This document shows, piece by piece, positions 3,740-20,418 of a DNA stretch of 64,000 nucleotides. Position 1 is the stretch's first letter. Each line of letters begins with the position of its first letter. Made by a program: the position numbers and the translations under genes. Source of the DNA: Streptomyces kanamyceticus. Its GTDB lineage: Bacteria > Actinomycetota > Actinomycetes > Streptomycetales > Streptomycetaceae. The DNA is taken from positions 6,572,001-6,636,000 of the forward strand of contig NZ_CP023699.1 in assembly GCF_008704495.1 (NCBI RefSeq). The letters are read 5' to 3'. The notes under the pieces were generated by a model. The model was not told where the DNA came from. It was given only the letters and a program-made list of their open reading frames with translations, and did no database searches.

Positions 3740-3792
3740 CCCCTCGGAGTTCGTCTGTTACCCCTCGGAGTCGACCTATCACCCCTCGGAGT
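3740..3792. repeat. Three 21-bp direct repeats at the 3' end of the globin gene
   Basis: The 11-mer CCCCTCGGAGT starts at 3740, 3761 and 3782, an exact 21-base period. On the minus strand the unit is seven codons long and encodes the last residues of the globin (NSEG, then stop). The two downstream copies would read DSEG-stop and NSEG in the same frame. The array therefore looks like an in-frame duplication of the gene's end, leaving redundant stop codons. Confidence 0.8.
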
Positions 3793-4192
3793 TCACCATG
3801 GACGCCGCCGCGTACGTCAGGTAGTTCCACAGCGTCCGCTCGTGCTCCTCGGAGAGCCCGAGCTCGTCGACCGCGGCGCGCATGTGCTTGAGCCACGCGT
3901 CGTGCGCGGCCCTGTCGACCGTGAACGGCGCGTGCCGCATGCGCAGGCGGGGGTGGCCGCGGTGGTCGCTGTAGGTGCGGGGGCCGCCCCAGTACTGCAT
4001 CAGGAACAGCGCGAGCCGCTCCTCGGCGGGCCCGAGGTCCTCCTCCGGGTACATGGGCCGCAGCAGGGGATCCTCCGCGATCCCCTGGTAGAAGAGGTGG
4101 ACCAGGCGCCGGAAGGTCTCCTCGCCGCCGACCTGCTCGTAGAAGGTCTGCTCCTGAAGCGCGCCGCGTGGGATCTCGTTCACACCGTCCAT
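3779..4192 (-). CDS. glbO: Group II truncated hemoglobin (137 aa)
   Basis: A small haem globin of the trHbO class, proposed to handle oxygen, peroxide or nitric oxide near the respiratory membrane. Support: TFYEQVGGEETFRRLVHLFY is the family N-terminus, YPEEDLGPAEERLALFLMQY the middle, and WGGP followed by H-P-R-L-R-M-R-H-A-P-F contains the proximal histidine region typical of trHbO. Length is normal. The ATG at 4192 is chosen because it gives the usual N-terminus; a longer open frame upstream would overlap the methyltransferase on the other strand. The gene is divergent from the methyltransferase with about 100 bases between them. Its last codons are repeated downstream (21-bp repeats). Confidence 0.92.
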   Translation of the reverse strand: MDGVNEIPRGALQEQTFYEQVGGEETFRRLVHLFYQGIAEDPLLRPMYPEEDLGPAEERLALFLMQYWGGPRTYSDHRGHPRLRMRHAPFTVDRAAHDAWLKHMRAAVDELGLSEEHERTLWNYLTYAAASMVNSEG

Positions 4193-4294
4193 GGTCTCAG
4201 ACGGGGCGGCCGAGTACGGAAGACTTAGGACCTCCCGGGGACCGGGCCCCGCCCGCCACTCGCATCGCGGGCGGCGGCGCAGCACAGTGGACTC

Positions 4295-5260
4295 ATGGAA
4301 CCCGAACCCGATGCCGCACTCGCCGCAGCGGCGCGGGCCGCTCTCGTGCGGGAGATCGACGCGACCGGAGTCTGGCGGGGCGACCCCGGGCTGCGGGCCG
4401 CGTTCGAGTCCGTGCCGCGGCACGTGTTCGTGCCGTACTACTACGTCAACGCGGGCGGCGGCCACGAGCGGCTGTGGGGCGAGGACCCGGACGCGGCGAG
4501 ACGGGCGCGCTGGCTGCGCGGGGCGTACGCGGACGCGCCCCTGGCCACCCGCCTGCGCGACGGTGATCTGCTGTCGTCGAGCAGCCAGCCGTCCCTGATG
4601 GCGATGATGCTCGCCGAGCTCGACGTGCGCGCGGGGGACCGGGTCCTGGAGATCGGCGCGGGCACCGGCTACAACGCGGCGCTGCTCGCCCACCGGCTCG
4701 GCGACGAGCACGTCACCACCGTCGACCTCGACCCGGAGATCACCGAGTCCGCGCGCCGGCACCTGGCGGCCGCCGGATACCGTCCGGCCGTGGTGACCGG
4801 CGACGGGGCGGCGGGCTGCGCCGAGCGCGCGCCCTACGACAGGATCATCGCCACCTGCACGCTTGGCTCGGTGCCCAGGGCCTGGCTCGCCCAGTGCCGT
4901 CCGGGGGCCCGGATCCTCGCGCCGCTGGCCACCGGCCTGATCACGCTGACGGTGCGCGACGCGGAGTACGCGGAGGGCCGCTTCCTGCACACGCCCGCCT
5001 ACTTCGTACCGCTGCGCGGCGGCAGCCGAAGGGCCCCGCACGAGCAGCACATCGGGGGGCTGCCGCGCAGGGCCCTGCAGAACGAACTCTTCCGTTTCCT
5101 TCTCGAGCTGACCGCGGGCAGCCTCGATCCCCATGAGGCGCTCGCGCTGTGGCAGCGCGAGGAGCGGCCGGTGCGCGAGCGCTTCGGGATCACCGTGAGC
5201 GGCCCCTACGAATGGGCCTGGCTCGACGACCCCGAAGGGCCGTACGTCTGGCCGCTGTGA
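4295..5260 (+). CDS. PCMT-like SAM-dependent methyltransferase (321 aa)
   Basis: A class I methyltransferase related to protein-L-isoaspartate O-methyltransferase. The SAM-binding motif I reads VLEIGAGTGYNAALLA (about residues 114-129) and is preceded by SSSSQPSLMAMML, the PCMT-type substrate loop. TVDLDPE forms the acidic motif II. The C-terminal 100 residues are an extra domain not found in canonical PCMT (about 220 aa). Such long PCMT-like proteins are common in Streptomyces, some tied to peptide maturation, but no precursor or ATP-grasp gene lies beside this one. Substrate is therefore open. There is no clear Shine-Dalgarno and a weak TANNNT-like element ends six bases before the ATG, so it may be leaderless. 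Confidence 0.8.
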   Translation: MEPEPDAALAAAARAALVREIDATGVWRGDPGLRAAFESVPRHVFVPYYYVNAGGGHERLWGEDPDAARRARWLRGAYADAPLATRLRDGDLLSSSSQPSLMAMMLAELDVRAGDRVLEIGAGTGYNAALLAHRLGDEHVTTVDLDPEITESARRHLAAAGYRPAVVTGDGAAGCAERAPYDRIIATCTLGSVPRAWLAQCRPGARILAPLATGLITLTVRDAEYAEGRFLHTPAYFVPLRGGSRRAPHEQHIGGLPRRALQNELFRFLLELTAGSLDPHEALALWQREERPVRERFGITVSGPYEWAWLDDPEGPYVWPL

Positions 5261-5277: not shown

Positions 5278-6627
5278 TCAGTCGCGGCGGATCGTGATCG
5301 TCGTCCAGGCGCCCACGTGCACCCGGTCGCCGTCCTGGAGCGGGATCGGGACGAACGGCTGGATGGGCTCCTCGCCGTTGTTGACCGTGGTGCCGTTCGT
5401 GGAGTTCTGGTCGACGACCGCCCAGCTGCTGTCCGGCTGCTGGACCAGGACCGCGTGCTGGTGCGATACGCCGGGGTCCTCCGGCGGCACCGACAGGTCG
5501 ATGTCCGGGGTGTCGCCCGTGGAGTGGCGGCGACGGCCGATGGTGATCTGGTTGCCGACCAGCGGACGCTGCTGCTCCGGCGAGTACGCGGGCAGGTTCA
5601 GGCCCGACGCCTCGGGACCGCTGCGCTGCATCATCGCCATGAAGTACTCACGGTCGGGACCGATCGTCGCCGTCCAGGTACCGGGGCCCTGCTGCGGCGG
5701 GGGCCCCTGCTGGAAGGGGTCCTGCTGCGGCGGCGGGCCCTGCTGGAACGGGTCCTGGGGCTGCGGGGGACCTTGCTGGAACGGGTCCTGCCGGGCGGGG
5801 GCCGAGGGCGGTGAGATCACCCAGTCGTCGCCTCCGCCGCCGAAGGACGGGCCGCCGGGACCGGGCTGACCAGGACCGGGCTGACCCGGACCGGGACCAG
5901 GACCCGGACCCGCGGGACCGGGTCCCTGCGGACCTGGCGGCGGCGGGGGCGGACCCTGCGGACCGCCGGTCTCCTGCGGGGCCTGCGGGAAGGCGGGCGG
6001 CGGGGGCGGACCCGGCTGCTGGAACGCCTGCGGGGCGCCGGGCGGCGTCTGGCCGGGGCCGGGCTGGCCGGGACCCGGCTGGCCGAAGCCGTTTCCGGGG
6101 CCGCCGCCGTTGCCACCGCCGTGGGCGCCGCCGTTGCCGAACGGCGGGATCGGCTCGGCGGGCCGGTTCATCTGCGAGGGGCGCGAGCCCTGGTAGTCGT
6201 AGCCCGGTCCCGGCGGCGGCTGGAACTGCTGCGCGGGGTTCGGCCCGGGCGGCTGCATGCCGGGTCCCGGACCGCCGTGCGTGCCCGGCAGCGGCGGGTT
6301 CGGCGCGGCCGGGGTGTACGAGGTGGCCGTGTTCGTCAGGAAGTTCCAGCGGCACTCCTCGCAGAACGGCGCGTTCGCCTCGCGGGGCGTGCGGCACTGC
6401 GGGCAGAGCTCGCCCTCGGGCGCCGGGTCGGGCACGGCGGCCAGGTGCGGGCGCGGCGGCGCGGGCTGCGGGAAGCCCGGGTCCTGACCGGGCGGCGGCG
6501 GGGGATAGCCGTACCCGGCCGCGGGCGGCGGCGGGGGCGGCGGAGGTACGGCACCGGCCATGCGGTGACCGCAGACCTCGCACCAGTCGTCGGAACCCGA
6601 CTGGTGTCCGTTCGGGCAGGTCGGCAT
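5278..6627 (-). CDS. FHA-domain protein with two N-terminal Cys-pair modules (449 aa)
   Basis: Last gene of the PknG-type operon. Two metal-binding-like modules occupy the N-terminus: C4, H8, C16, C19 and C75, C78, C89, C92. A disordered region (about 100-335) follows, rich in Pro, Gly and Gln, with three tandem QDPFQQGPP units near 285-325. The C-terminal FHA domain (about 345-449) has GRRR, SHQHA and NSTNGT in the right order for phosphothreonine binding. FHA proteins read kinase output, so this is a likely PknG target or scaffold, as FHA proteins GarA/OdhI are in mycobacteria and corynebacteria. It is much longer than those. It converges with the methyltransferase gene, only 17 bases apart. 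Confidence 0.9.
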   Translation of the reverse strand: MPTCPNGHQSGSDDWCEVCGHRMAGAVPPPPPPPPAAGYGYPPPPPGQDPGFPQPAPPRPHLAAVPDPAPEGELCPQCRTPREANAPFCEECRWNFLTNTATSYTPAAPNPPLPGTHGGPGPGMQPPGPNPAQQFQPPPGPGYDYQGSRPSQMNRPAEPIPPFGNGGAHGGGNGGGPGNGFGQPGPGQPGPGQTPPGAPQAFQQPGPPPPPAFPQAPQETGGPQGPPPPPPGPQGPGPAGPGPGPGPGQPGPGQPGPGGPSFGGGGDDWVISPPSAPARQDPFQQGPPQPQDPFQQGPPPQQDPFQQGPPPQQGPGTWTATIGPDREYFMAMMQRSGPEASGLNLPAYSPEQQRPLVGNQITIGRRRHSTGDTPDIDLSVPPEDPGVSHQHAVLVQQPDSSWAVVDQNSTNGTTVNNGEEPIQPFVPIPLQDGDRVHVGAWTTITIRRD

Positions 6628-6763
6628 GTCGGCGCTTCCCCCTCTCCTTCTCCGGCCCGAGGGCCGTGTACTGCGCTTTTTCTTACGGATTGCTGGTGGA
6701 GCGCTTCGCGTGCGGCAGCCGCACGTGCTGCCGCCTCCGCTACCGCTTCGGCGACTGCTTCCG

Positions 6764-8119
6764 CTACTGCTTCTTCACGCGAACAGTTTTCGTCGAGCGC
6801 GTCTCGAGTGTCATCTCGTCGGCCTCGGCGACCTTCGCCTTCAATCGAACAGTACCTGCCGCGGCATCGACGACGTCCACCACCTTCGAAAGGAGTTTCG
6901 CCGTATCCGCGTTGCCCGAGGCGCTGGCGAGCTGGACCGCGCGGCCGAGCTTCGCCGTCGCCCCGTCGACATCTCCCGATTTACGCGCATCGAGCCCCTG
7001 CTGGATGACTTGGGCCAGTTCCGCCTGGCCCGTGTAGTGCGCGACCTGCGGATTGATCGACGTGGAGGCCGCCATGTCGTCCGTCCACACCGCACGCACC
7101 AAACCCTGCGACAGCGTCTGTACGCCGCCGTCGCCCCCCGGCACGATCAGTGAGACCCGGGCCGCCAGCATCTCCTGGCCGAGCTCGGCATCGGGCACCC
7201 GCACACAGATGTGGTAGTCGCGGGACTCGTCGCCCCAGGATCCCGTGGGGTAGTCCCCGGCGCGCGGCCCCGCCTCCGTGCGACGGTCCGTCAACTCCTC
7301 GACGGTGGGCGCCACTTGCTTGACGAACTTGATCTCCGAGCCGAGCGGCGTCCACAGCCGCAGACTGACGTCGGCGACCTCCTTGCCCATCGCCGTCTCC
7401 ATCATCCGCGTGAAGTCGGCGGCCAGGCCCGCGGGGTCGGCGACGATGTCGGCGGTGCCGAGGAGGGCGGAGGCGATCGCCGTGACCTCCTTCACCTCCC
7501 AGTCCGTGCCGACGCCACGGGCGTCGCAGGTGAAGCGGCCCGCGCAGGAGTCCAGCGCGGCCTTGAGGTCCTCGGGTGACTCGTGTTCATTGCGGCCGTC
7601 GGTGAGCAGGATCCCGTGCCGTACGGCGGAGGGGGCGACGTCGGCGGCGGCGAGCAGCCGGTCGGCCAGGCGCAGCCAGGTGCCGATGGCCGTGCCGCCG
7701 CCCGCGCTGAGCTTGCGCAGGGCCTGCTTGGCCTGCTCCCTGGTCCGCGGCTCTGCCACCGCGAGGCGGCCGTTGCCCGGGTAGACCTCCTTGGCGATGT
7801 GGGTGCCGCCGATCACCGCGAAGTGCACGCCGTCGCGGACGGCGTCGATCGCGGCGGCCGTGGCGTCCCGAGCGCCCCGCATCTTCGTCGGCGGGTAGTC
7901 CATGGAGCCCGAGCAGTCGACCATGATCGCGACGGCGGCGTCGGGGCTCTGCCCGGCCGGGTAGAAGTGGGGCGCACCGACCGCGGAGCCGATGGTTCCG
8001 CCGCCGGTGGAGGTCACCGTGGCGATGGCGTTGACCTCCCTGCCGCCCTCCGGCAGGAACTCGTTCTGATAGACGTCGACCGAGAACTGCGGCACGTTCG
8101 ACTTCGAGAAATTGGCCAT
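6764..8119 (-). CDS. von Willebrand factor A domain protein (451 aa)
   Basis: A cytoplasmic vWA protein with no signal peptide. The metal-ion-dependent adhesion site is intact: DCSGS at about residues 68-72, then a conserved Thr in the GGGTAIG loop and LLTDGRNE around residue 170. The C-terminal half (about 230-451) is a beta-rich domain followed by helical repeats. The ATG at 8119 starts the family sequence MANFSKSNVPQF. It lies between the PP2C and FHA genes in the same direction, so it probably serves as an interaction platform in the same signalling pathway. There is a 136-base gap to the FHA gene with no obvious promoter. Confidence 0.88.
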   Translation of the reverse strand: MANFSKSNVPQFSVDVYQNEFLPEGGREVNAIATVTSTGGGTIGSAVGAPHFYPAGQSPDAAVAIMVDCSGSMDYPPTKMRGARDATAAAIDAVRDGVHFAVIGGTHIAKEVYPGNGRLAVAEPRTREQAKQALRKLSAGGGTAIGTWLRLADRLLAAADVAPSAVRHGILLTDGRNEHESPEDLKAALDSCAGRFTCDARGVGTDWEVKEVTAIASALLGTADIVADPAGLAADFTRMMETAMGKEVADVSLRLWTPLGSEIKFVKQVAPTVEELTDRRTEAGPRAGDYPTGSWGDESRDYHICVRVPDAELGQEMLAARVSLIVPGGDGGVQTLSQGLVRAVWTDDMAASTSINPQVAHYTGQAELAQVIQQGLDARKSGDVDGATAKLGRAVQLASASGNADTAKLLSKVVDVVDAAAGTVRLKAKVAEADEMTLETRSTKTVRVKKQ

Positions 8120-8207
8120 GGATGCTGCTCCCCCTCAGACCCTCGGACATCCGTCCCCCGGCTTCCCCCAAGTCGGCCGGGTGACGCGTGTGTTGGCGCG
8201 CGCATCG

Positions 8208-8232
8208 GCTCCCGCGCGTTTACGGCGGGAGC
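8208..8232 (-). other. Hairpin between the PP2C and vWA genes
   Basis: Arms 8208-8215 and 8225-8232 (GCTCCCGC and GCGGGAGC) with a 9-base loop lie just after the PP2C stop codon. No T-run follows on the minus strand, so it is more likely a processing or attenuation structure inside the operon than a full terminator. Confidence 0.4.
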
Positions 8233-8239
8233 GTCCGCT

Positions 8240-9607
8240 CTAGGCCGATCCTGCCCCTTGCGGCACGAACGGGAACGGGACGACCGCCACTGTTACGTTG
8301 TCGTGGCCCCCGCCGTCCAGGGCGTGACCGACCAGGACCTGCGCGCTGTGCAGCGGCCGCCGGGCCGCGTCGGCGGGCACGGCGCCCGCCATCTCCTCGA
8401 CGGCCTCCGCGTAGTTCCACAGCCCGTCCGTGCACACCACCACTACACCGGCACGGTCGGGCTTGAAGGAAGCGGTGTGCGGCTCCAGTTCGTACGCGTC
8501 GGCGCCGAGCCAGCCGGTGATGGCGTGCGCGCGCTCGTCCGCGTACGCCTCGGCCTCGTTCATCAGCCCCGCGGCCACCATCTGCGCGGCCCACGAGTCG
8601 TCCTCGGTGAGGCGGACGGTGGGGCCCGAGCGGTCGTCGGGGACCCAGTAGGCGCGGCTGTCGCCGACCCAGCCGACGACGAGCAGGCCGCCGGCGACGA
8701 TCGAGCCGACCAGGGTGCAGGCGGGCGCGTTCTGGTGGGGGCCCTGGTCGCGGGCGGTCGCGGGCTCGGCGGCCAGCGCGTTGACCGCGTCGGCCGCGGC
8801 GATGATCGCGTCGTGCATGGCCTGCTGGGGGTGCGTGCCGCGCGGCAGCGCGCCCTGCAGCGACTCGTTGGCGGCCAGGGAGGCGGCGAGCGAGGCCTCG
8901 TCGGGCCTGGTCGCCGACGAGACGCCGTCGCAGACGATCGCGACGACGGCGGGTGAGCCGTCGGGCAGCGCGGCCGCCGAGATCGCGAACGCGTCCTCGT
9001 TGCGGTGGTGGCGGAGCCCTCGGTCGCTGACCGCGGCGACCGCGTCCAGCTCCTGCTCCATGTGGTCGCGCTCGCGGGGCTGGGCGTGCCCGCAGTTCTC
9101 GCAGTACCCGTCCGGGTCGACGCGGCCCGAACGGCAGGCCACGCAGAGCTTGGTGCCCGCGGGGGGCGTCGGCTCGGGGGGCGCTGCCCGGGGGTCGGCG
9201 CCCTCGCCGGGCGCTGCCGCCGGGTTCGTACCCGCCGCGTCCGGGGCGTCAGGCGCCGCGGCCGCACCGGCGGTGCCCGGCGCGGGCAGCGGGTACTCGT
9301 CGGGCTCGGTGCCCGCGGGCCCGGGACCCGCGGGTCCCGGATCCGGCTGCGCGAGGTCCGTGCCCCCGGAGTCCGTGCCGGGTACGTCGTGGGGCCGGTG
9401 CGTCGGCACCGGCACGTCCGAGCTGTCCACCTCGGGGGCCGGTGGCCACTGTGCGGCGGCGGCCTTGGCGGCCGACCCGTTGGGTGAGGCGTCCGGCCGC
9501 GCCGGGACGACCGAAAGGTCGAACCCGCACGCACCACAGAACAGGTCACCCGACTCCAGCGGCTCCTCACAGCTGGGGCAGGCAGACAGTTGGGGCATCT
9601 GCGACAT
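8240..9607 (-). CDS. PP2C-type Ser/Thr protein phosphatase with two Cys-pair modules (455 aa)
   Basis: Metal-dependent protein phosphatase expected to oppose the neighbouring PknG kinase. Two CxxC-pair modules precede the catalytic domain: CPSC...CGAC near the N-terminus and CVAC...CENCGH at about 155-178, joined by a Pro/Ala/Gly-rich linker. The catalytic domain (about 185-455) has the PP2C aspartates in order: RNEDAF, VCDGVSS, GDSRAYW, CTDGLW and GGHDN. The ATG at 9607 lies three bases after the pknG stop; a GTG at 9619 would overlap pknG by ten bases and is less likely. No transmembrane segment, so it acts in the cytoplasm. Confidence 0.93.
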   Translation of the reverse strand: MSQMPQLSACPSCEEPLESGDLFCGACGFDLSVVPARPDASPNGSAAKAAAAQWPPAPEVDSSDVPVPTHRPHDVPGTDSGGTDLAQPDPGPAGPGPAGTEPDEYPLPAPGTAGAAAAPDAPDAAGTNPAAAPGEGADPRAAPPEPTPPAGTKLCVACRSGRVDPDGYCENCGHAQPRERDHMEQELDAVAAVSDRGLRHHRNEDAFAISAAALPDGSPAVVAIVCDGVSSATRPDEASLAASLAANESLQGALPRGTHPQQAMHDAIIAAADAVNALAAEPATARDQGPHQNAPACTLVGSIVAGGLLVVGWVGDSRAYWVPDDRSGPTVRLTEDDSWAAQMVAAGLMNEAEAYADERAHAITGWLGADAYELEPHTASFKPDRAGVVVVCTDGLWNYAEAVEEMAGAVPADAARRPLHSAQVLVGHALDGGGHDNVTVAVVPFPFVPQGAGSA

Positions 9608-9609
9608 AC

Positions 9610-12144
9610 TCACACCCACGTCCGGGGGCGGAAACGGTTGGCCCGTTCCACCAGTTCGATCCTCTCCTGGCCACCCTGTGCGAGCCGGGCCAGTGTCCGG
9701 TACGAACGCTCCAGACCGAACCGGAGACCACGCTCGTCCAGGTCGCTGCCGAGCAGTACGGCCCGCGCCCCGGTGGTGGCCGGTGGTGCGGAAGCGTGAC
9801 CAGAGTGCCTACCGGAGAGTACCCAGTCGAGCGCCGTCCCCAGAACCTCGGTCGACAGGCGCTCCCTGCGCACCGCGTCGAGACCGAAGCCCGCCAGGGC
9901 CTCGACCTGCCCCGCGGCGGCCGTCAGGTCGTCGAGGAAGCCCGCTCCGGGCGCCGCCGCCGTGTCCGACGTCATACGCCGACGCAGCCGCGCCCGCACC
10001 GCCGCGACCCGGGCCGCGGTGTAGTGGATGGAGGACTCCGGCACCGACTCCAGGGTGCGCACGGCGCCGCCGCGGTCGTCCGCGGCCAGCTGCACACGGG
10101 CCAGGCCGAACGCGGAACTCACGTAGCTCGGGTCGGTGGTCCACACCAGGCGGTAGTACTCGGCGGCGTTGTCCAGCTGGCCGAGCACCTCCGCGCAGAC
10201 GGCGAGCGCCAGCTTCGGCGCGGGCTCACCGGGGAACGCGTCGTAGACGGCGTCGAAGGAGAGCGCCGCGCTCTCGAAGTCCCCGGTCGCCAGGGCCGAG
10301 ATGCCTCGGTACCAGACCACCCGCCAGTCGTCGGGGTGGCGGCGCTCCAGATCGGCGAGGGCCTCGGCGGCGGGCGTCAGCTCGCCCATCGCGAGGCGGG
10401 CGCGCAGGCCGCGCAGTTGCAGCTCGATCGAGTCGCCGGGCGCGGCGTCGAGGGCGCTGATCAACTCGGCGGGCGCGGAGGCCAGCAGCCCGGCGAGGAA
10501 CCCGGCGTTCGGGTCGTTCGGGTCGACGCGGGGCACCGGCAGGGCCAGGGCGGTCACGGCGGCGTCCAGCGGGCGCACGATCGTGGTGGCCTCCGTGGTC
10601 GTGCCGGGCAGCGCGGGCGGGCCGCCGTTGCCCGAGGGGGCGAGCGAGCGCACCCCGAGACGCGACTCGTCGCCCGAGAGCTCGGCGAACAACTCGGTGT
10701 CAGTGACCTTCACTTCGGGCCCGAAGAGGGTGGAGAGCGCCGGACGCGGCTTGCCCGTCTGGAGCGCCACGACCTCCCGCAGGACGCCGGTGAGCTGCTC
10801 GGCCATCTCCTGCGCGGAGGCGAAGCGGCGGGCCGGGTCCGGGTCCGTGGCGCGCACCAGGAGCCGGTAGAACGACTCGTACGTCCGGAAGACCTCGATG
10901 TTGTCGGGGTCGGGCAGGGAGTCCACGAAGACGTTCGTATAGCCCTGGAAGTCGAAGGTGAGGACGGCGAGCGTGCGCGCGACGGTGTAGAGGTCGGAGG
11001 CGACCGAGGGGCCCACCTCGGCGACCTCGGGCGCCTGGTAGCCGACGGTGCCGTAGATCGCGGACTCGTCGTCGTCCATCCTGCGGACCGCGCCCATGTC
11101 GATGACCTTGAGCTGGCCCTCGGTCTGGATGGCGTTGTCGACCTTGAAGTCGCAGTACAGGACGTTGCGGCTGTGCAGGTGTCCGAGGGCTTCGAGCGCC
11201 TCGATGCCGTACGCGCAGGCCTGCTCGACCGGCAGCGGATCGCGCTTGCCCTCGGCGGTGCGGCGGCCGTTGGCGATCTCCTTGAGGGACTTGCCGCCGA
11301 CGTACTCCATGACGATGTAGCCGTCCATGGAGCCGGTGCGCTGGTCGAGGTGCTCGACGAAGTTGTAGATCCGCACGATGTTGGCGTGCTCGATCTCGGC
11401 GAGGAAGCGGCGCTCGGAGATCGCCGCGGCCATCGCGTCCTGGTCGCCGGTGTCGAGCAGGCCCTTGAGGACCACCCAGCGGTCGGAGACCGCGCGGTCG
11501 ATGGCGAGGTAGACCCAGCCGAGGCCGCCGTGCGCCAGACAGCCCACGACCTCGTACTGGCCGTGCACGATGTCGCCGTCGTTCAGCTTCGGTACGAAGG
11601 AGTAGGGGTGCCCGCACTTGGTGCAGAAACCCTCGGTGCGGCCCGGGCGTTCGCCGCGTGCGCGGCCCACCGGGGCGCCGCAGTCCGAGCGCGAGCAGAA
11701 TCGCTTCCGCTCGGGCACCTCGGGGTTCTTCTGCACCGCCCCGCGCGGGTCGGGGCGCGGCACGTCCGGCACCGCGACCAGGCCGACGCCGAGCCGCCCG
11801 CGCGCCGACGAGGCCGCCGACGAGCCCGAACTGCGCACCGAGACCGAGCGCGAGGTCGAACGCCCCGAAAGCGCGCGGGAAAGCCGCCCCGACACCGACC
11901 TGCGCGAGGACTGGGAGCGCGACGAGCGTGACGAGCGCGTGGACCGCGACGACGAGCGGGAGCTCGAACTGCCCGAGCCCCGCGAGCCCTTGCCGCCGAC
12001 GGTGAGCCCGGTCGGCGGCGAACCCACCATCCCGTTGGGCGCGACGACCGGGGCGAGGCCGCAGGTGTCGCAGTACAGCTCGCCGCCGCCGACGTCCTCG
12101 TACGACCCTGTGCAGCCGGGCCGCTGACACTGCTGCTGGCTCAC
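9610..12144 (-). CDS. pknG: PknG-type soluble Ser/Thr protein kinase (844 aa)
   Basis: Cytoplasmic kinase of the PknG class. Domains in order: a Cys-pair module (C6, C11, C25, C28), a Ser/Arg low-complexity segment (about 55-118), a rubredoxin-like metal site (C150, C155, C174, C177), a kinase domain with LAHGGLGWVYLA as glycine loop (203-214), Lys227, YCDFK with catalytic Asp332 and DMG at 349-351, then a TPR-like helical tail (about 560-844). The rubredoxin-kinase-TPR order is diagnostic. In mycobacteria PknG senses amino acids through GlnH/GlnX and phosphorylates an FHA protein that controls 2-oxoglutarate metabolism. The start is GTG at 12144 behind GGAGGGAGG and overlaps the previous stop (GTGA), so translation is coupled. 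The N-terminal module and Ser/Arg region are additions to the mycobacterial form. Confidence 0.93.
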   Translation of the reverse strand: MSQQQCQRPGCTGSYEDVGGGELYCDTCGLAPVVAPNGMVGSPPTGLTVGGKGSRGSGSSSSRSSSRSTRSSRSSRSQSSRRSVSGRLSRALSGRSTSRSVSVRSSGSSAASSARGRLGVGLVAVPDVPRPDPRGAVQKNPEVPERKRFCSRSDCGAPVGRARGERPGRTEGFCTKCGHPYSFVPKLNDGDIVHGQYEVVGCLAHGGLGWVYLAIDRAVSDRWVVLKGLLDTGDQDAMAAAISERRFLAEIEHANIVRIYNFVEHLDQRTGSMDGYIVMEYVGGKSLKEIANGRRTAEGKRDPLPVEQACAYGIEALEALGHLHSRNVLYCDFKVDNAIQTEGQLKVIDMGAVRRMDDDESAIYGTVGYQAPEVAEVGPSVASDLYTVARTLAVLTFDFQGYTNVFVDSLPDPDNIEVFRTYESFYRLLVRATDPDPARRFASAQEMAEQLTGVLREVVALQTGKPRPALSTLFGPEVKVTDTELFAELSGDESRLGVRSLAPSGNGGPPALPGTTTEATTIVRPLDAAVTALALPVPRVDPNDPNAGFLAGLLASAPAELISALDAAPGDSIELQLRGLRARLAMGELTPAAEALADLERRHPDDWRVVWYRGISALATGDFESAALSFDAVYDAFPGEPAPKLALAVCAEVLGQLDNAAEYYRLVWTTDPSYVSSAFGLARVQLAADDRGGAVRTLESVPESSIHYTAARVAAVRARLRRRMTSDTAAAPGAGFLDDLTAAAGQVEALAGFGLDAVRRERLSTEVLGTALDWVLSGRHSGHASAPPATTGARAVLLGSDLDERGLRFGLERSYRTLARLAQGGQERIELVERANRFRPRTWV

Positions 12145-13460
12145 GATTCCTCCCTCCGGTCGGTGGGCCCGCCCTGCTGGGGGACCCTCGGCGCGAGCGC
12201 GTCGGCCGCGGCCTGCTGATAGCGCAGCACCGCCTGCTCGGCCACGCGCAGGTCGCAGGGCGCGCTCCACAGCATCCGGCGGGCCGCGTCGTACCGCTCG
12301 ATCAGGAGCGGGTCCTCGGCGTGGCCGAGCCGGGCGACCTTCGCCTTGTACGCGTCCAGGCGGCCGCGCAGCTCGGCGCGGACCGCGAGGGGCGCGGTGA
12401 CGGCCGTCAACGACTCACGCGCGCGCAGGAGTTCGTCGTCGGCCTTCTGCTCAAGCGATTCCAGGAGCGGCGAGAGCCGGTGCCACTGGGCGTTCCTGCG
12501 GTAGTCGGCGGCCGTCGCCAGCTGCTCCTGGAGCGCGGTCGGCGGGCCGCTGACCGCGGGCACCTCGGACGCGGCGATCTTCGCGAGGACCTCGCCGCGG
12601 GCGCTGCGCGCCTCCGCGAGGGTGCGGTCCGCGCGGGAGAGCACGTCGCGCAGCCTGCCCAGGCGCGCCTCGGCGTCCTGGCGGACGGTGAGCACCGCGT
12701 CGATCTCGCGGCGCACCTCCTCCAGGGCGCGTGCCTCGCGGTCGTAGCGCTCGGTGCCGGGGCGGCCGCCGCCGGGCGCCGAACTGCCCTGCGCGCGCTG
12801 CCAGAAGGCGAGCGGATCGGAGACCACCTGCTCGCGCAGGGCGGTCAGGGCGCGGGTGATGCGCTCCAGGTCGTCGCCCGAGGGGTGCTCACCCGGACGT
12901 ACGCCCACGGAGTGCGCGAGCTGGCGGGTGCGGGACAGCTCGGCGGCGAGCAGGTCGATGCGGGCGGGCAGCGCCGACCAGACGGCGTCGGCGGCGACGA
13001 CCATGTCGAGCGAGTGCGCGTACAGGTCGTTCATCCGGGACACCAGCTGCTCGAGCGTGAAGCGCTCGGTGAGCTTGGCGGGCCCGGTGACCGAGGGCGA
13101 TGTGCCGCTCGTCGAGCCGCCCGAGACGGTCACGGACTCGCCGCGCAGCAGTTCCGTGAGCTCCACGAGGTCCTCGCGGCTCGGCCAGCGGCGGCGCTCG
13201 CGCAGCTCGTGCGCGGTGCGCAGGGCGGCCGCGTACGCGTCGAAGTACGCCCAGAGCAGCGTGATACGGCCCTCGGCGTCGGCCCAGCGCTCCTCGGTGA
13301 CGCCGGTCAGCGCGGCGCCCTCCAGGAGGCGGCGGCCCGCGTGGTCCTGGAGGGCGAGGAGCGAGGTCTCGATCGCCTCGTGCTCGGCGTCGAGGCGCGC
13401 CAGCGCACGGTCCACCTCGTCCCGGTCCAGTACCGGACCGGGGGGTCCCGTGACGCTCAT
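12141..13460 (-). CDS. Uncharacterised alpha-helical protein of the pknG operon (439 aa)
   Basis: Not recognised as a named family. The sequence is almost entirely helix-forming, rich in Ala, Leu, Arg and Glu, with heptad-like stretches around 10-110 and 225-400. A Ser/Gly/Thr linker lies near 110-125. There is no signal peptide, membrane segment or metal-binding motif. It lies between glnH and pknG and overlaps pknG by four bases, so the two are translationally coupled. A stoichiometric adaptor joining the membrane sensor to the kinase is a reasonable inference, but nothing in the sequence proves it. The mycobacterial locus has no gene at this position as far as I recall. Confidence 0.8.
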   Translation of the reverse strand: MSVTGPPGPVLDRDEVDRALARLDAEHEAIETSLLALQDHAGRRLLEGAALTGVTEERWADAEGRITLLWAYFDAYAAALRTAHELRERRRWPSREDLVELTELLRGESVTVSGGSTSGTSPSVTGPAKLTERFTLEQLVSRMNDLYAHSLDMVVAADAVWSALPARIDLLAAELSRTRQLAHSVGVRPGEHPSGDDLERITRALTALREQVVSDPLAFWQRAQGSSAPGGGRPGTERYDREARALEEVRREIDAVLTVRQDAEARLGRLRDVLSRADRTLAEARSARGEVLAKIAASEVPAVSGPPTALQEQLATAADYRRNAQWHRLSPLLESLEQKADDELLRARESLTAVTAPLAVRAELRGRLDAYKAKVARLGHAEDPLLIERYDAARRMLWSAPCDLRVAEQAVLRYQQAAADALAPRVPQQGGPTDRREES

Positions 13461-13533
13461 CGATCACTCTCCGCTCTGCGTGTGCCGCGCTGCGTGTGCC
13501 GCAACTCTTCAGTGGTACCAGGTCGGTTGGCGA

Positions 13534-14529
13534 TCAGTCGCGGTACTCCGGAGCGGGCGGGGTCACCTTGCCGTTGAGGCCGCCCGCGAGCCACTTGTCG
13601 TAGGACTTCTGCCAGCCGCCGTCCTCGCGGTAGTCCTCGAGGACCTTGTTGACCCGGCGCACCAGGTCGTCCGAGCCCTTCTTCATCGCCACTCCGTAGT
13701 GCTCGGTGGTGAACGGCTCCTTGCCCTTGAGCTCGACCGTCGGGTCCTGTGCGGCCTGTCCCGCGGCGAGCGCGCTGTCGGTCACCACGGCGTCGACCTC
13801 GCCGAGCTGGAGCCGCACCAGGCAGTCGAGCTGGTTGGGCACGGTGGTGGAGATGTCGGCGCCGAAGGACTTCTTCTTGAGCTCCTCCTCCGCGATGGAA
13901 CCGGCCGCCGAGCAGACCTTCTTGCCCTTCAGCGTGTCGTTGTAGCCCGTGATGTCGGACTTCTTGGGGGCGAGCACCTGCTGGCCCGTCTCGAAGTACC
14001 CGGTGGAGAAGTCGACGTCGTCCAGGCGGGCGCAGTTGATCGTCATGGTGCGGACGACCATGTCGACCTGGCCGCTCTGGATCGCCGGGATGCGCTGGTT
14101 GGTGGGGATGGCCCGGAACTTGACGGCGTTGCGGTTGCCGAAGATCTCCTCGGCGATCTTGTGCGCGAGATCGATGTCGAAGCCCTCCAGCTCACCGCCC
14201 TTCTTGTTCGGGTCGCGGTAGCCCCACTGGTAGCTGTTCTGGTCCACGCCGACGACGAGCTTCTTGACCTCGCGGTTCTTGATGGCCTCGATCGTCGGGC
14301 CGTCCTTGGGCGAGGGGCGCAGGCTCCGGTCGTTGCAGTCGTCGGCGTCGGCGCGCGCGGGCGCCGCGACCGTGACACCGGGGCCGCCGCGGCCCACGCC
14401 GTCGTCCCCGCCGCCCCCGTCACCGGGCGGCAGCGCCAGCACGAGCGTCCCCGCGAGCGCGCAGGCGGCGCCCATCGCCCCCACGCCGCCCCAGCCGCGC
14501 AGCCTGACCGTGCCACGTCGTGTACGCAT
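13534..14529 (-). CDS. glnH: Amino-acid-binding protein, GlnH type (331 aa)
   Basis: Extracytoplasmic solute-binding protein of the glutamate/glutamine family (PBP2 fold). After a Tat/Sec-like basic N-terminus and hydrophobic segment (about 10-35), the binding domain starts around 75 with VKKLVVGVDQNSYQWGYRDP. ELEGFDIDLAHKIAEEIFG is the family signature and VDMVVRTMTI another. The segment lacks a lipobox cysteine, so anchoring is through the signal or helix rather than a lipid, unlike mycobacterial GlnH. The start at ATG 14529 has GAGGAGG upstream. No amino-acid permease or ATPase is nearby; its partner is the membrane protein encoded next to it, pointing to sensing rather than uptake. Confidence 0.87.
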   Translation of the reverse strand: MRTRRGTVRLRGWGGVGAMGAACALAGTLVLALPPGDGGGGDDGVGRGGPGVTVAAPARADADDCNDRSLRPSPKDGPTIEAIKNREVKKLVVGVDQNSYQWGYRDPNKKGGELEGFDIDLAHKIAEEIFGNRNAVKFRAIPTNQRIPAIQSGQVDMVVRTMTINCARLDDVDFSTGYFETGQQVLAPKKSDITGYNDTLKGKKVCSAAGSIAEEELKKKSFGADISTTVPNQLDCLVRLQLGEVDAVVTDSALAAGQAAQDPTVELKGKEPFTTEHYGVAMKKGSDDLVRRVNKVLEDYREDGGWQKSYDKWLAGGLNGKVTPPAPEYRD

Positions 14530-14561
14530 CGTCTGCGCGCCTCCTCTCACCTCTGGCCCCG

Positions 14562-16070
14562 TCACCGGTACTCCGAAAGCCTGCGGCCGATGCCGAGCAC
14601 GGCGCCCGCCGCGCCGAGGACCGCGAGGACGGCGGCGCCGACGGGCAGGCCGCTCATGGCGCCCCTGCCGTCCTCGGCCGCCTGCTTGAACTCGCCCTGC
14701 TCGTGCGCCAGTGCCTGCTCGAGAGCGGCGTCCACGTTGTCGAAGCACTCTCCGGTCGGCGCGTCGGCCTTGGTGCCGATGACCTTGTCAAGGGCGTCCT
14801 GGTACTCGCCGGAGTCGTCGCTGGCACGCGCCTCCTTGTGCCGCAGCTTCCACACGCCCACGTTCTTCACGGCGGCGGCGACCGGGTTCCTGCCGTCCTG
14901 GTCGTCGGCGAGGGCGGCGGCCTTCCCGAGCAGTCCGTTGTCCGAGTCGCCCAGGCGCTTCATCAGCGTGCGGTAGGAGACGTCGAACTTGTCCTGCACC
15001 TTGCCGCCCACCTCGATGGTCTCCGCGCCCCTGCTGACCAGGGTCAGGTTCTCGTTGCCGCGGGCCTTCAGGGAGCTGATGCGGGCGTCGTTGAGGACGT
15101 TCAGGGACTGCACCCCGTTGTCGTAGGAGTCGTTGAGGCCCGACCTGGCGAAGGTGTGGCCGACCACCAGCCAGAGCATGACGACCGTCGCGGTGGCGGT
15201 GGCGGCGAGCAGGCCGTGGTTGAACACCCGGTTCGTACGCCGGTAGTTGCGGCGCTGGGCCCAGACGAGGGCGGCGAGCGCGAGGAGGCCGAGGGCGATG
15301 GCGAACCACGGGTACGGCTTCGCCTTGCCGTAGTCGGAGTCGAGGCGGCTGTTCTCCGCCTTGTAGAGCTTCTCGGCGGCCGGGAGCATCTGCGTCTGCA
15401 TCTTGTCGTTCGCGTAGCGCAGATAGGCGCCGCCGAGCGGCAGGCCCTGGCGGTTGTTGGCGCGGGCCCGCTCGATCAGGCCCGTGTACTGGGGAAGGAG
15501 CTTGTTCAGCTTGGCCACGGCGGCGGCCGACGACGAGTCCGCGCCCGCGTTCGACGCGGCCTTCGCGAGCTTCTCCGAGGCCCGCTCAATGTCGCTCTCG
15601 TAGCGGGAGCGCGCCGCGGCGGGCTCCTGGCCGCCCGCGAGGAAGCCGCTGGACGCCGCGGTGTTGGCGTCGGCGAGCGAGCGGTAGATGGCCGCGGCGT
15701 CGGCGCTCAGCGGCTGGCTGCGGTGCAGCACGTCGTCCGCGGCGGCCGAACGGTCCGTCATCTGCCAGGTGGTGACCGCGCCGAAGGCGACGACGAGCAG
15801 GGCGAGGAAGGCGCCGATGATCCGCAGCCTGCCCGGCTCGGTGGTGGCCGCGGCGCGCAGCCGGTCCGTCCCCTCGGCCCAGGCCGTGCGGCGCGCGGCG
15901 GCGGGCGGCGCGGACCGCGGCGGCTGCGCGGGCGACGGGCCCGGTGCCTGCGGCGGAACCGCGGGCGGCGCGGGCGCGGGTACGGCGGGCGGCTGCCCGG
16001 GCGGGCCCGGCGGCACGGCGCTGCCGTTCGGCGGATGTGTCACCTTGACCTCGACCTCCCCCTTGGTCAT
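14562..16070 (-). CDS. glnX: GlnX-like four-helix membrane sensor (502 aa)
   Basis: First gene of the operon. A Pro/Ala-rich cytoplasmic N-terminus (1-80) is followed by four membrane segments, at about 84-105, 248-268, 283-305 and 475-495. Two long helical extracytoplasmic loops (about 106-247 and 306-474) resemble the four-helix-bundle sensor domains of chemoreceptors, the layout described for mycobacterial GlnX. Together with GlnH it should report extracellular amino acids to PknG. The stop lies 32 bases before the glnH start. The ATG at 16070 has a G-rich but imperfect ribosome site. The 190-base stretch upstream must carry the operon promoter, but no convincing -35/-10 pair was seen. Confidence 0.82.
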   Translation of the reverse strand: MTKGEVEVKVTHPPNGSAVPPGPPGQPPAVPAPAPPAVPPQAPGPSPAQPPRSAPPAAARRTAWAEGTDRLRAAATTEPGRLRIIGAFLALLVVAFGAVTTWQMTDRSAAADDVLHRSQPLSADAAAIYRSLADANTAASSGFLAGGQEPAAARSRYESDIERASEKLAKAASNAGADSSSAAAVAKLNKLLPQYTGLIERARANNRQGLPLGGAYLRYANDKMQTQMLPAAEKLYKAENSRLDSDYGKAKPYPWFAIALGLLALAALVWAQRRNYRRTNRVFNHGLLAATATATVVMLWLVVGHTFARSGLNDSYDNGVQSLNVLNDARISSLKARGNENLTLVSRGAETIEVGGKVQDKFDVSYRTLMKRLGDSDNGLLGKAAALADDQDGRNPVAAAVKNVGVWKLRHKEARASDDSGEYQDALDKVIGTKADAPTGECFDNVDAALEQALAHEQGEFKQAAEDGRGAMSGLPVGAAVLAVLGAAGAVLGIGRRLSEYR

Positions 16071-16305: not shown

Positions 16306-17295
16306 TCAGGAGGCCGCGGCCTCGTAATGCGCCCGCACGCGCGCGTGCACCTCGGTCGGCGCCCCGACCTGGTCGAGGCCGAGGAGCGCGGCGCCCAGCA
16401 CGGGCCGCTCCGCCACCACCCGGGGCACCGCCTTCGGCGCCCGCTCGTCCAGCAACGCCCTGATCCGGTCGTCCAGTTGAGGATGGCGCGCGGCCAGGAC
16501 GCTGCCGCCGAGCAGCACCGGCGCCGCCTCGTCGAGCAGGTCGAGGCGGTCGAGGGCGACGGTCGACATGGCCACCACCTCGTCGGCCATCCGGTCCACC
16601 ACGGAGCGCGCCACGGCGTCGCCCGCCGCCGCGGCCGCGAAGAGCACCGGCGTCAACTCGTGCCGCCGCACAGGGGCGATGCGGCCCAGGTGCAGCGCCT
16701 CGATCAGCGCGTACATGGACTCCAGGCCGAAGTGCGCGGGCAGCATCTCGCGCAGCGCGGTCGCCTCGCCGCGGCCGTCCTCGGCGCGCGCCGCGAACCA
16801 GAGCGCCTCCTCGGCGAGGCCGCCGCCCCCGCCCCAGTCGCCGGAGATCCGGCCGATGGCGGGGAAGCGGGCGGTGCGCCCGTCGGGCAGCATGCCCACG
16901 CAGTTGATGCCCGCGCCGCACACCACGGCGACGCCGCGCGGTTCGGCGTCCTCCAGGAGCCCGGCGCGCAGGATGGCGAAGGTGTCGTTGCGTACGTCGA
17001 CCGACGCGCCCCACGCGCGCCGCCGCAGGGCCTCGGCCAACTCCCTTTCCTCGACGGGCAGATCGGCGTTGGCGAGGCAGGCCGAGACATGGCCCACGGA
17101 GGCCACGCCCGCCTCGGTGAACGCCCGTGTCACCGCGTCCGCGAGGATGTCCACCGCCGGTTCGACGCCGATCTGCGGCGGCTGGAACCCGCCGCCGCGG
17201 GCCGCGCCGACGACGGTGCCGTCGGTCGCCACCACCGCGACGTCGGTCTTGCTGTTGCCCGCGTCGATCGCGAGCACGCTCGTGCCTACGCCCAC
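16306..17295 (-). CDS. csnK: BadF/BcrA-type ATPase, probable N-acetylglucosamine or glucosamine kinase (329 aa)
   Basis: ASKHA-fold sugar kinase. LAIDAGNSKTDVAVV is the phosphate-1 loop, GVAVVCGAGINCVG and GRISGDWGGGGGLAEEALW the phosphate-2/BadF signature, and APVLLGGSVLAARH the adenosine loop. It closes a six-gene operon and would phosphorylate the monosaccharide freed from imported oligosaccharides. In the csnR-K operon of S. coelicolor the last gene is a sugar kinase at this position. The GTG at 17295 overlaps the previous gene by ten bases and has GGGAG upstream. An alternative GTG five codons later is possible. A strong terminator follows. Confidence 0.8.
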   Translation of the reverse strand: MGVGTSVLAIDAGNSKTDVAVVATDGTVVGAARGGGFQPPQIGVEPAVDILADAVTRAFTEAGVASVGHVSACLANADLPVEERELAEALRRRAWGASVDVRNDTFAILRAGLLEDAEPRGVAVVCGAGINCVGMLPDGRTARFPAIGRISGDWGGGGGLAEEALWFAARAEDGRGEATALREMLPAHFGLESMYALIEALHLGRIAPVRRHELTPVLFAAAAAGDAVARSVVDRMADEVVAMSTVALDRLDLLDEAAPVLLGGSVLAARHPQLDDRIRALLDERAPKAVPRVVAERPVLGAALLGLDQVGAPTEVHARVRAHYEAAAS

Positions 17296-18551
17296 GCCAG
17301 GTGCTCCCGGTTGTGCGCGATGAGGCTGTCCGTGAGCTGCTCGGCGTACGCGTACTGGCCGACCAGCGGATGGGCGAGCAGCGCCTTGAAGACGCGCTCG
17401 CGGCCGCCGTGCAGCGCGGCCTGGAGCGCCAGGTCCTCGTATCCGGTGACGTTCGCGATGAGCCCGGCGTACAGCGGGTCGAGCTTCGGCACGGCGAGTG
17501 GCTTGGCGCCCTTGCCGTCGACCGTGGCCTGCACCTCGATGACCGCGTCGTCGGGCAGGAAGGGCAGCGTGCCGTTGTTGACGGTGTTGATCACCTGGTA
17601 CGGGCTGCCCCCGTTGCCGAGCAGCGAGGCCGCGAGGTCCACGGCCGCCTCCGAGTAGAAGGCGCCGCCGCGCTTGGCGAGCAGTTCGGGCTTCTCGTCG
17701 AGCGTGGGGTCGCCGTACATCTCCAGCAACGTACGCTCCATCGCGGCCACTTCGGAGGCCCGCGACGGCTTGGTCCGCAGCTCCTCGACCACGGCGTCGT
17801 GCTGGTAGAAGTAGCGCAGGTAGTACGAGGGCACGACACCGAGCCGGTCGACGATCGCGCGCGGCATGCGCAGGTCCTCGGCGACCGCGTCCCCGTGCTC
17901 CGCGAGGAGCTTGGGGAGGATGTCGTCGCCGCCCGGGCCGCCGAGGCGTACGCCCGTCTCCCAGGTGAGGTGGTTGAGCCCCACGTGATCCAGGTGGACC
18001 TCGCCCGGCGCGACGTCGAGGAGCTTGGCGAACTTGCGCTGGAAGCCGATCGCCACGTTGCACAGGCCGACGGCCTTGTGTCCGGCCTGCAGCAGCGCGC
18101 GGGTGACGATGCCGACCGGGTTGGTGAAGTCGATGATCCAGGCGTTCGGGTTGGCCCGCCGGACGCGCTCGGCGATGTCGAGCACCACGGGCACCGTGCG
18201 CAGCGCCTTGGCGAGGCCGCCCGCGCCGGTGGTCTCCTGGCCGACGCAGCCGCACTCCAGGGGCCACGTCTCGTCCTGGTCGCGGGCCGCCTGCCCGCCG
18301 ACGCGCAGCTGCAGGAGCACGGCGTCGGCGTCCGCGACGCCCGCGTCCACGTCGGAGGTGGTGACGATGCGGCCGGGGTGGCCCTGCTTGGCGAAGATGC
18401 GCCGCGCGAGGCCGCCCACCAGCTCCAGGCGGTCGGCCGCCGGATCGACGAGGACGAGTTCCTCGATCGGCAGGGTGTCCCTCAACCGCGCGAATCCATC
18501 GATGAGTTCGGGGGTGTAGGTCGAGCCTCCGCCGACCACTGCGAGCTTCAT
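17286..18551 (-). CDS. csnH: Family 4 glycoside hydrolase, 6-phospho-glycosidase type (421 aa)
   Basis: NAD- and metal-dependent glycosidase of family GH4, which cleaves glycosidic bonds by redox elimination. MKLAVVGGGSTYTPELIDGF is the dinucleotide-binding start. Metal ligands are C164 in GLCNVAIGFQ and H194 in GLNHLTW; NPVGIVTRALL and FTNP are family signatures. Length is typical. In this operon it should split short imported amino-sugar chains, possibly as 6-phosphates. The ATG at 18551 lies eight bases after the permease stop, and its end overlaps the kinase gene. Confidence 0.88.
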   Translation of the reverse strand: MKLAVVGGGSTYTPELIDGFARLRDTLPIEELVLVDPAADRLELVGGLARRIFAKQGHPGRIVTTSDVDAGVADADAVLLQLRVGGQAARDQDETWPLECGCVGQETTGAGGLAKALRTVPVVLDIAERVRRANPNAWIIDFTNPVGIVTRALLQAGHKAVGLCNVAIGFQRKFAKLLDVAPGEVHLDHVGLNHLTWETGVRLGGPGGDDILPKLLAEHGDAVAEDLRMPRAIVDRLGVVPSYYLRYFYQHDAVVEELRTKPSRASEVAAMERTLLEMYGDPTLDEKPELLAKRGGAFYSEAAVDLAASLLGNGGSPYQVINTVNNGTLPFLPDDAVIEVQATVDGKGAKPLAVPKLDPLYAGLIANVTGYEDLALQAALHGGRERVFKALLAHPLVGQYAYAEQLTDSLIAHNREHLAWA

Positions 18552-18559
18552 ATCGGTTC

Positions 18560-19465
18560 TCAGCCCTTTACTCCGGTGAGGGTGACGCCTTCGACGAAGG
18601 CCTTCTGTGCGAAGAAGAAGATGATGATCACGGGAGCCATGACCAGCAGCGTCGCCGCCATGGTCATGTTCCAGTTGACGCTGTGCGCGCTCTTGAACGA
18701 CTCCAGGCCGTAACTGAGCGTCCAGGCGCCGGGGTTCTGGGCCGCGTAGATCTGCGGCCCGAAGTAGTCGTTCCAGCAGTAGAAGAACTGGAAGAGCGCG
18801 ATGGCGGCGATGCCGGGCTTGGCCATCGGCACCACGATCTTGACCATGGTGCGGAACTCGCCGCAGCCGTCGACCTTCGCCGACTCGATGTACTCCTTGG
18901 GGATGGTGAGGAGGAACTGACGAAGCAGGAAGATCGAGTAGGCGTCGCCGAACGCCATCGGGATGATCAGCGGCCAGAGCGTGCCCGAGAGGTGGAACTG
19001 CTGGGCCCACACCAGGTACATCGGGATCACGATGACCTGCGGCGGCAGCATCATCGTGGAGATGACGAGCAGCATCGCGGTGCGCCGCCCGCGGAAGCGG
19101 AACTTGGCGAGCGCGTACGCCACGGGGATCGCCGAGCAGACGGTGAAGAGGGTCCCGAGACCGGCGTACATCAGCGAGTTGCGCCACCAGTCGAGGAAGC
19201 CCGGCGTCTCGAAGACCTCCTTGTAGTTCGACCAGTGCCAGGAGTTGGGCCACAGGTCGCCGCTCATCGCCTGCGAGTCGCTCATCACCGACGTCAGGAA
19301 GACGAAGACGAACGGCAGGACGAAGAGCAGCGCGACGGCTATCGCGACGCTGTGCACGGCGATCCAGTGCAGGATGCGCTTGCGGCGGGCGCGGGCGGCG
19401 GCGGGGCCCCGGGTCGGGGCGGTCCGTTCGGGTGTCGTCGGCGCGGTGAGAGTCGTAGTCGTCAT
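18560..19465 (-). CDS. csnG: ABC sugar transporter permease, MalG type (301 aa)
   Basis: Inner-membrane subunit of a CUT1 carbohydrate importer. Six membrane helices are visible starting at about 33-55. The EAA loop, which contacts the ATPase, reads YIESAKVDGCGEFRTMVKIV near residue 205. The N-terminal 30 residues are Thr/Pro-rich. It is six bases from the partner permease gene. No ATPase gene lies in the operon, so the shared ATPase MsiK probably energises the transporter, as for other Streptomyces oligosaccharide importers. Confidence 0.9.
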   Translation of the reverse strand: MTTTTLTAPTTPERTAPTRGPAAARARRKRILHWIAVHSVAIAVALLFVLPFVFVFLTSVMSDSQAMSGDLWPNSWHWSNYKEVFETPGFLDWWRNSLMYAGLGTLFTVCSAIPVAYALAKFRFRGRRTAMLLVISTMMLPPQVIVIPMYLVWAQQFHLSGTLWPLIIPMAFGDAYSIFLLRQFLLTIPKEYIESAKVDGCGEFRTMVKIVVPMAKPGIAAIALFQFFYCWNDYFGPQIYAAQNPGAWTLSYGLESFKSAHSVNWNMTMAATLLVMAPVIIIFFFAQKAFVEGVTLTGVKG

Positions 19466-19471
19466 GAGTCC

Positions 19472-20407: not shown

Positions 20408-20418
20408 GGCTTCGGTCC

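Follow-up and report, generated by a model that had tools for sequence, protein, structure and literature searches.

Streptomyces kanamyceticus encodes the protein kinase PknG within a seven-gene unit. The unit lies in a window of 64,000 nucleotides (contig NZ_CP023699.1, positions 6,572,001 to 6,636,000, all within a single 10.13 Mb contig), where profile searches place glnX, glnH, P3, pknG and the genes for a PP2C phosphatase, a von Willebrand factor A (vWA) protein and a forkhead-associated (FHA) protein in that order on the minus strand, from 16070 to 5278. All seven one-direction genes of an initial annotation were thus recovered with the limits it had given. PknG signalling has been characterized in mycobacteria and corynebacteria (PMC6069109, PMC9769921, PMC8546545). 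From sequence comparisons, we suggest with a probability of roughly 0.55 that the unit for PknG signalling in actinobacteria has its complete form in these seven genes, and that the three-gene mycobacterial unit (glnX-glnH-pknG) probably descends from it by reduction. The initial annotation had described the operon as "expanded". This is probably backwards. Nor is the arrangement peculiar to this genome: the seven-gene form is the usual one in the Streptomyces loci examined and is present in several other families.

Distribution, gene order and direction of change

The seven-gene form is widespread among PknG loci. We retrieved the surroundings of PknG or PknG-like genes, 120 stretches in all, and scanned them with hidden Markov models (HMMs) made from the window genes; these HMMs were trained on matches from the same loci, and weak HMM scores are therefore not independent. 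The sample was drawn from a non-exhaustive listing of PknG matches, and it left out two further copies in genome G552 and matches below about 70 bits, except in loci L088, L094 and L108. Some genomes contribute two loci, and part of the incomplete loci are cut by contig ends. Families are denoted by anonymous codes, f1 being that of the window. All seven genes are present in 57 of the 120 loci: 26/30 in f1 (a total that includes the window genome's own paralogue), 11/22 in f84, 10/24 in f85, 7/7 in f7, and the single loci of f104, f78 and f41, the last of which (G189/L090) belongs to another class. As for PknG itself, its rubredoxin domain scores above cut-off in 117 of 345 sampled genomes of the class, and its TPR domain in 20 of 296 genomes of a phylum-wide sample.

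Gene order within the module is invariant. Wherever P3, pknG, PP2C, vWA and FHA were all found, they stand in that identical order on one strand (58/58 loci), an arrangement that is thus not due to chance. Conservation of the order across actinobacteria was the check that the initial annotation had proposed, and such conservation is strong evidence for shared function. The glnX-glnH pair is placed before the module in f1, f85 and f7, behind it in f84, and divergently in L090. A second set, the 80 best of at least 586 relatives, consists of loci with source names that were found by means of the vWA protein; all seven genes are present in 62 of these, including Streptomyces, Actinacidiphila, Streptacidiphilus, a metagenome-assembled genome (MAG) of Solirubrobacteraceae and Smaragdicoccus niigatensis. 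Among the other 18 of these 80, 17 measure less than 20 kb and have fewer genes (partial modules on short contigs come from Actinophytocola and two Streptosporangiaceae MAGs), and the remaining one, from Kutzneria, has no detected glnH.

One family consistently carries the three-gene form. We infer from its OdhI sequences (ETTSVF) and top PknG scores that this family, f3, is Mycobacteriaceae. Its loci read glnX-glnH-pknG in 30 of 32 cases; the other two have pknG alone and come from genomes that also possess a three-gene locus. P3, PP2C, vWA and FHA were not found in any of the 32. Genome-wide searches of 11 f3 genomes recovered no vWA homologue in any, a single marginal P3 match (E 7e-4) in one genome, and PP2C relatives that are weak (35-43 bits) in four genomes, absent in six and clear in G050.

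PknG trees place the f3 clade among module-bearing lineages, with starred support in the Shimodaira-Hasegawa-like approximate likelihood-ratio test (SH-aLRT; quick method). The trees omit three short pknG rows and use a thinned set of f1 and f3 rows; the second also omits five long-branch rows. Given the nested position of f3, and a module that occurs in several families of Actinomycetes as well as in at least one other class, loss in f3 is likelier than gain in Streptomyces. The f84 genome G485, in which glnX-glnH-pknG is also the form present, has near tree relatives that bear the module; this looks like an independent reduction. Smaragdicoccus niigatensis (L285), of the order Mycobacteriales, carries the full seven-gene module. 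In the tree its PknG stands apart from those of f3, so the module may be a transfer, and we did not use this species as a vertical keeper of the module in evidence for loss.

The locus and its products

The features of the unit are as follows (window coordinates, all minus strand).

14562..16070, minus: glnX, four-transmembrane membrane relay of the GlnX family (NF058618, 510 bits, cut-off 250; four hydrophobic segments)
13534..14529, minus: glnH, extracytoplasmic amino-acid-binding protein (SBP_bac_3, 108 bits; closest solved structure 6h1u, a GlnH, 174 bits)
12141..13460, minus: P3, helical coiled protein, proposed adaptor (AlphaFold 2 model; conservation in the genus)
9610..12144, minus: pknG, Ser/Thr kinase with rubredoxin-like and TPR domains (Pfam profiles; catalytic Lys/Asp/Asp)
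12058..12129, minus: additional N-terminal zinc ribbon of PknG, C-x4-C ... C-x2-CG (sequence motif)
8240..9607, minus: PP2C phosphatase with two N-terminal zinc ribbons (PP2C_2; conserved metal-binding Asp)
9524..9580, minus: zinc ribbon 1 of the PP2C protein (sequence motif)
9089..9145, minus: zinc ribbon 2 of the PP2C protein (sequence motif)
6764..8119, minus: vWA protein, VWA_3 and VWA_3_C, with complete metal-ion-dependent adhesion site (MIDAS) (Pfam)
5278..6627, minus: FHA protein with two zinc ribbons, a Pro/Gly-rich linker and a C-terminal FHA domain (FHA, 57.9 bits)
6568..6618, minus: zinc ribbon 1 of the FHA protein, with one His (sequence motif)
6352..6405, minus: zinc ribbon 2 of the FHA protein (sequence motif)

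The genes are closely spaced, with intergenic distances from glnX to the FHA gene of 32, 73, -4 (an overlap), 2, 120 and 136 bases. The overlap is that of the pknG start, GTG at 12144, with the P3 stop (GTGA); this start is internal to the open reading frame (ORF) listed by the gene-finding tool, as is the likely glnH start, ATG at 14529, which was picked by eye with a GGAGG-like ribosome site upstream. Downstream, a convergent PCMT-type methyltransferase ORF ends the unit 17 bases from the FHA gene, and upstream 235 bases separate glnX from a BadF/NagK-type kinase gene. A sigma-70 scan, which is a weak test for Streptomyces, gave no promoters (0.2 expected). No terminator-like sites were found on the minus strand; the two detected overall (2.4 expected) are both on the plus strand.

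The GlnH pocket differs between lineages. GlnX falls below the equivalog model for PknG-activating proteins (NF041460, 188 bits against a cut-off of 780). Pocket residues of Mycobacterium tuberculosis GlnH include Arg147, Thr162 and Trp232, the last of which touches the ligand side chain (PMC6069109). In that numbering, the window GlnH retains Arg147, Thr162, Arg169 and Asp250 and has Gln in place of Trp232; its ligand may therefore differ. The residue at this position is Gln in 28/29 f1 proteins, Tyr in 20/20 of f84 and Trp in 30/30 of f3, a lineage-specific pattern hinting at different ligands.

Kinase, phosphatase and vWA protein all retain the residues expected of active domains; the importance of individual kinase, PP2C, vWA and FHA residues is general family knowledge. 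All three PknG domains score above cut-off (PF16919, PknG_rubred, 103 bits; PF00069, Pkinase, 91; PF16918, PknG_TPR, 288), and the protein matches the solved structure 2pzi at 567 bits. Its catalytic Lys, HRD-type Asp and DFG-type Asp are all present in the window and in 120, 123 and 122 of 123 relatives, respectively, the relatives lacking one all being from f85. S. coelicolor PkaF/SCO2110 was considered as a pknG orthologue; nothing showed it, and it was not used. The phosphatase matches PP2C_2 at 44.5 bits (cut-off 24) and NF033484 at 98.8 bits, under the cut-off of 230; its metal-binding residues are present in the window and near-invariant across 78 aligned rows, and it is distant from PstP (best 43 bits). 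The MIDAS of the vWA protein (D-x-S-x-S, T, D) is intact in the window and kept in 69/69 aligned relatives.

The operon FHA protein, to judge by its sequence, is not OdhI/GarA, the known target of PknG. Its phosphothreonine-site residues are present in the window and maintained in aligned relatives (Arg, Ser and Asn in 71/71, His in 70/71). Against the OdhI/GarA model NF041660 it scores 23.8 bits (cut-off 200), the lowest of eight matches in the genome, and the phosphorylation motif [ED]xTS is absent from it and from all 66 operon FHA loci (0/62 for a stricter motif). The weakest OdhI match and the missing motif would thus make it an additional reader. An OdhI/GarA homologue is encoded about 2 Mb from the operon (G000:C1:8550739-8551083). 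It scores 191 bits, just below the NF041660 cut-off, has the N-terminal motif SETTSTIS, and has GarA (163 bits) and OdhI (153 bits) as best solved relatives. OdhI homologues occur in all 30 other PknG-bearing genomes sampled (E < 1e-25); by eye, 26 of the 30 carry [ED]xTS, with variants in f7, f104 and G189. The initial annotation had envisaged sensor, kinase, eraser and reader in one transcript. All of these domains are indeed encoded together, in conserved order; that the kinase is joined there by its known FHA target is unsupported.

Zinc ribbons recur at the N-termini of these proteins: one on PknG, besides its rubredoxin-like domain, two on the phosphatase and two on the FHA protein. With the paralogue of the window genome excluded, the PknG ribbon, either intact or with another residue for its last Cys, is found in 80/87 loci outside f3 and 0/32 within it (shuffle rate 0.0008). 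The Streptomyces FHA ribbons were seen by eye in the window; as they contain a His and lack the final Gly, they escape our ribbon expression, which detects 1/26 in that genus. OdhI/GarA likewise has an N-terminal ribbon in Streptomyces and several other families (L002 1330-1860, L198-L227, L328-L332), and this is missing from the three f3 genomes examined, G519 (f108), Kutzneria, Actinophytocola and Smaragdicoccus. Joint loss of the OdhI ribbon and the module was considered and dropped, being contradicted by the last three of these, which carry all or part of the module; the OdhI ribbon thus tracks lineage, not module. The ribbons of kinase, phosphatase and FHA protein, and in many lineages of OdhI too, are likely docking sites.

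P3 is a conserved protein outside the known families. The initial annotation was right to call it an unknown helical protein: Pfam and NCBIfam searches at E 0.001 gave it no family, nor did PADLOC, and its AlphaFold 2 model (58 sequences) is mostly helix, with a mean predicted local distance difference test (pLDDT) score of 88.3 and a predicted template modelling (pTM) score of 0.69. Structure comparison of the model gave no telling match. Among the matches listed, 119 other P3 proteins are 82-95% identical, and nearly all that have a source name are from Streptomyces. Of 101 Streptomyces genomes searched, the window genome included, 100 contain P3; two of these matches are fragments, and the sole miss is a 79%-complete genome. 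In one Streptomyces locus (L155, genome G023) P3 is broken across two frames, either a sequencing error or a damaged gene. The conserved portion is C-terminal, as f7, f78 and f104 proteins align only from about model position 172.

A paralogous cluster of the window genome (L098, G000:C1:5757000-5776900, at 6148-11713, minus strand) encodes a fusion of a trypsin-like domain with a P3-type C-terminal region (P3 match E 2.7e-4; 58 bits), a PknG-like TPR kinase and a vWA protein; glnX, glnH, PP2C and FHA were not found in the 20 kb stretch that holds it. Kinase, P3 domain and vWA thus recur together in a setting that lacks the sensor, which fits an adaptor role for P3.

Two neighbouring regions were also noted. 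Upstream of glnX, the genes at 16306-23284 (minus) that adjoin the PknG operon resemble a sugar uptake unit, with the BadF/NagK-type sugar kinase, a ROK-type repressor, and the binding protein and two permeases of a sugar ATP-binding cassette (ABC) transporter. At 3779-5134 (minus), an ORF has a globin match confined to its C-terminal third, so that the real start is probably far inside the ORF.

A proposed amino-acid-gated switch and its alternatives

We infer an amino-acid-gated kinase/phosphatase switch in which P3 may serve as adaptor. Amino acid bound by GlnH would bring about a change in GlnX. How GlnX interacts with PknG is described as still elusive (PMC9769921); P3 may connect GlnX to the PknG TPR region, or else keep the kinase complex together. 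PknG would phosphorylate OdhI/GarA, encoded elsewhere with its motif kept, so releasing 2-oxoglutarate dehydrogenase, and would probably also phosphorylate members of its own complex. The PP2C phosphatase would reset the switch (in Corynebacterium glutamicum, Ppp dephosphorylates OdhI; PMC9769921), the FHA protein would bind a phosphothreonine of a partner, and the metal site of the vWA protein would serve assembly. In mycobacteria and close relatives, P3, PP2C, vWA, FHA and the PknG ribbon would probably have been lost, leaving only sensor, relay and kinase.

Several observations weigh against the seven genes being one complete, later reduced unit. Single genes can be absent: 4/22 f84 loci lack P3 only and 3/22 lack vWA only, and genome-wide searches did not find P3 in G600 or G502, or vWA in G459. 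G485 keeps the PknG ribbon on its three-gene form although P3, PP2C and vWA were not found in its genome (FHA was not sought), which makes the ribbon independent of those genes. The OdhI ribbon does not track the module: it is missing in Smaragdicoccus, which has the seven genes, in Kutzneria, where six were found, and in Actinophytocola, whose short contig shows pknG to FHA. The f3 genome G050 (L237, G050:C88) has a PP2C protein 41% identical to that of the window over most of its length (119 bits); this gene lies away from the pknG loci of that genome. Finally, the polarity of change rests on a root that is not independently fixed, and long branches met at the root of the first tree.

One alternative is two linked but separate units, with GlnX-GlnH-PknG controlling OdhI and an independent PP2C-vWA-FHA phosphosignalling unit serving other kinases and targets. 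The parts do come apart, as in the f84 order P3-pknG-PP2C-vWA-FHA-glnX-glnH and the divergent glnX-glnH of L090; vWA and FHA are each set off from the gene before them, by 120 and 136 bases; and OdhI, the known output, is encoded elsewhere. Nevertheless, pknG accompanies PP2C-vWA-FHA in every one of the 58 five-gene loci, and among the 11 f3 genomes vWA has no homologue and PP2C a match above 45 bits in G050 alone. We consider such a division possible, if unlikely.

A bolder version of the switch would make P3 the missing GlnX-PknG coupler and the ribbons of PknG, PP2C, FHA and OdhI a single docking code around it, with mycobacterial PknG a relic that has replaced its lost adaptors with its own autophosphorylated N-terminus; as a whole, this is speculative and rather improbable.

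The unit might also be a branch of an actinobacterial zinc-ribbon kinase/PP2C/vWA triad, of conflict or envelope-stress type, that gained GlnX-GlnH and has complex assembly rather than central metabolism as its chief output. Beside GAP1-N2 GTPase systems, a standalone vWA does occur together with PP2C and a zinc-ribbon kinase (PMC7159879), and the paralogue cluster unites its trypsin-P3 domain protein, kinase and vWA without a sensor. Such an origin is difficult to square with the OdhI homologues of all 30 other PknG-bearing genomes sampled, 26 with the motif by eye, and the PADLOC models that match are kinase models only; we judge it distinctly unlikely. With those kinase models the only PADLOC matches, a defence role is not supported. 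That a mycobacterial three-gene operon was enlarged by four recruited genes is the least credible account, for although the three-gene unit is the only form in the available parts of the PknG/GlnX papers (PMC6069109, PMC9769921, PMC8546545), the module reaches at least a second class as well as several families, with the three-gene clade nested among its bearers.

Should the seven genes be the complete form, as we favour, Streptomyces would supply a candidate coupler, phosphatase and reader in one operon, and the coupling question would become directly testable in laboratory strains that are harmless. PknG signalling also bears on antibiotic production through the effect of GarA in Saccharopolyspora, where expression of a non-phosphorylatable GarA doubled erythromycin yield, according to the accessible part of PMC12321487.

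Comparison with known systems

Kinase, PP2C and vWA or FHA genes are clustered in other systems. The TerY-phosphorylation triad of Ter systems consists of clustered vWA, PP2C and kinase, the same three types as in the window. A general Pfam scan found no Ter domain among the window ORFs; relatives were not searched. Type VI secretion has a threonine phosphorylation pathway (PpkA-PppA-Fha) whose kinase, PP2C and FHA protein are encoded at one locus. The PpkA layout is kinase-vWA (PMC1262709). The window has a different kinase and sensor; secretion genes were not sought.

Like the window, the triad beside GAP1-N2 GTPases (PMC7159879) places a zinc-ribbon kinase alongside a PP2C and a standalone vWA. 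The window differs in that its kinase is PknG, with rubredoxin and TPR domains, and in its additional GlnX, GlnH, P3 and FHA; GAP1 was not sought. We found no account of a seven-gene PknG unit, or of PP2C, vWA or FHA genes beside pknG, in the open-licence literature searched, figures excluded (including Fig 2B of PMC6069109). The zinc-ribbon kinase/PP2C/vWA triad is already published, and the seven-gene form with PknG is apparently new.

Among the closest known systems is the GlnH-GlnX-PknG-OdhI/GarA cascade of mycobacteria and corynebacteria, as presented in the available parts of PMC6069109, PMC9769921 and PMC8546545. The window genome has homologues of the same sensor, relay and kinase, and a motif-bearing OdhI/GarA homologue. 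Relative to that cascade, it adds four genes, the N-terminal ribbon of PknG and the ribbon of OdhI, and has Gln for Trp232 in GlnH. On the view that all seven genes make up the complete unit, the mycobacterial one should not be taken as the whole model.

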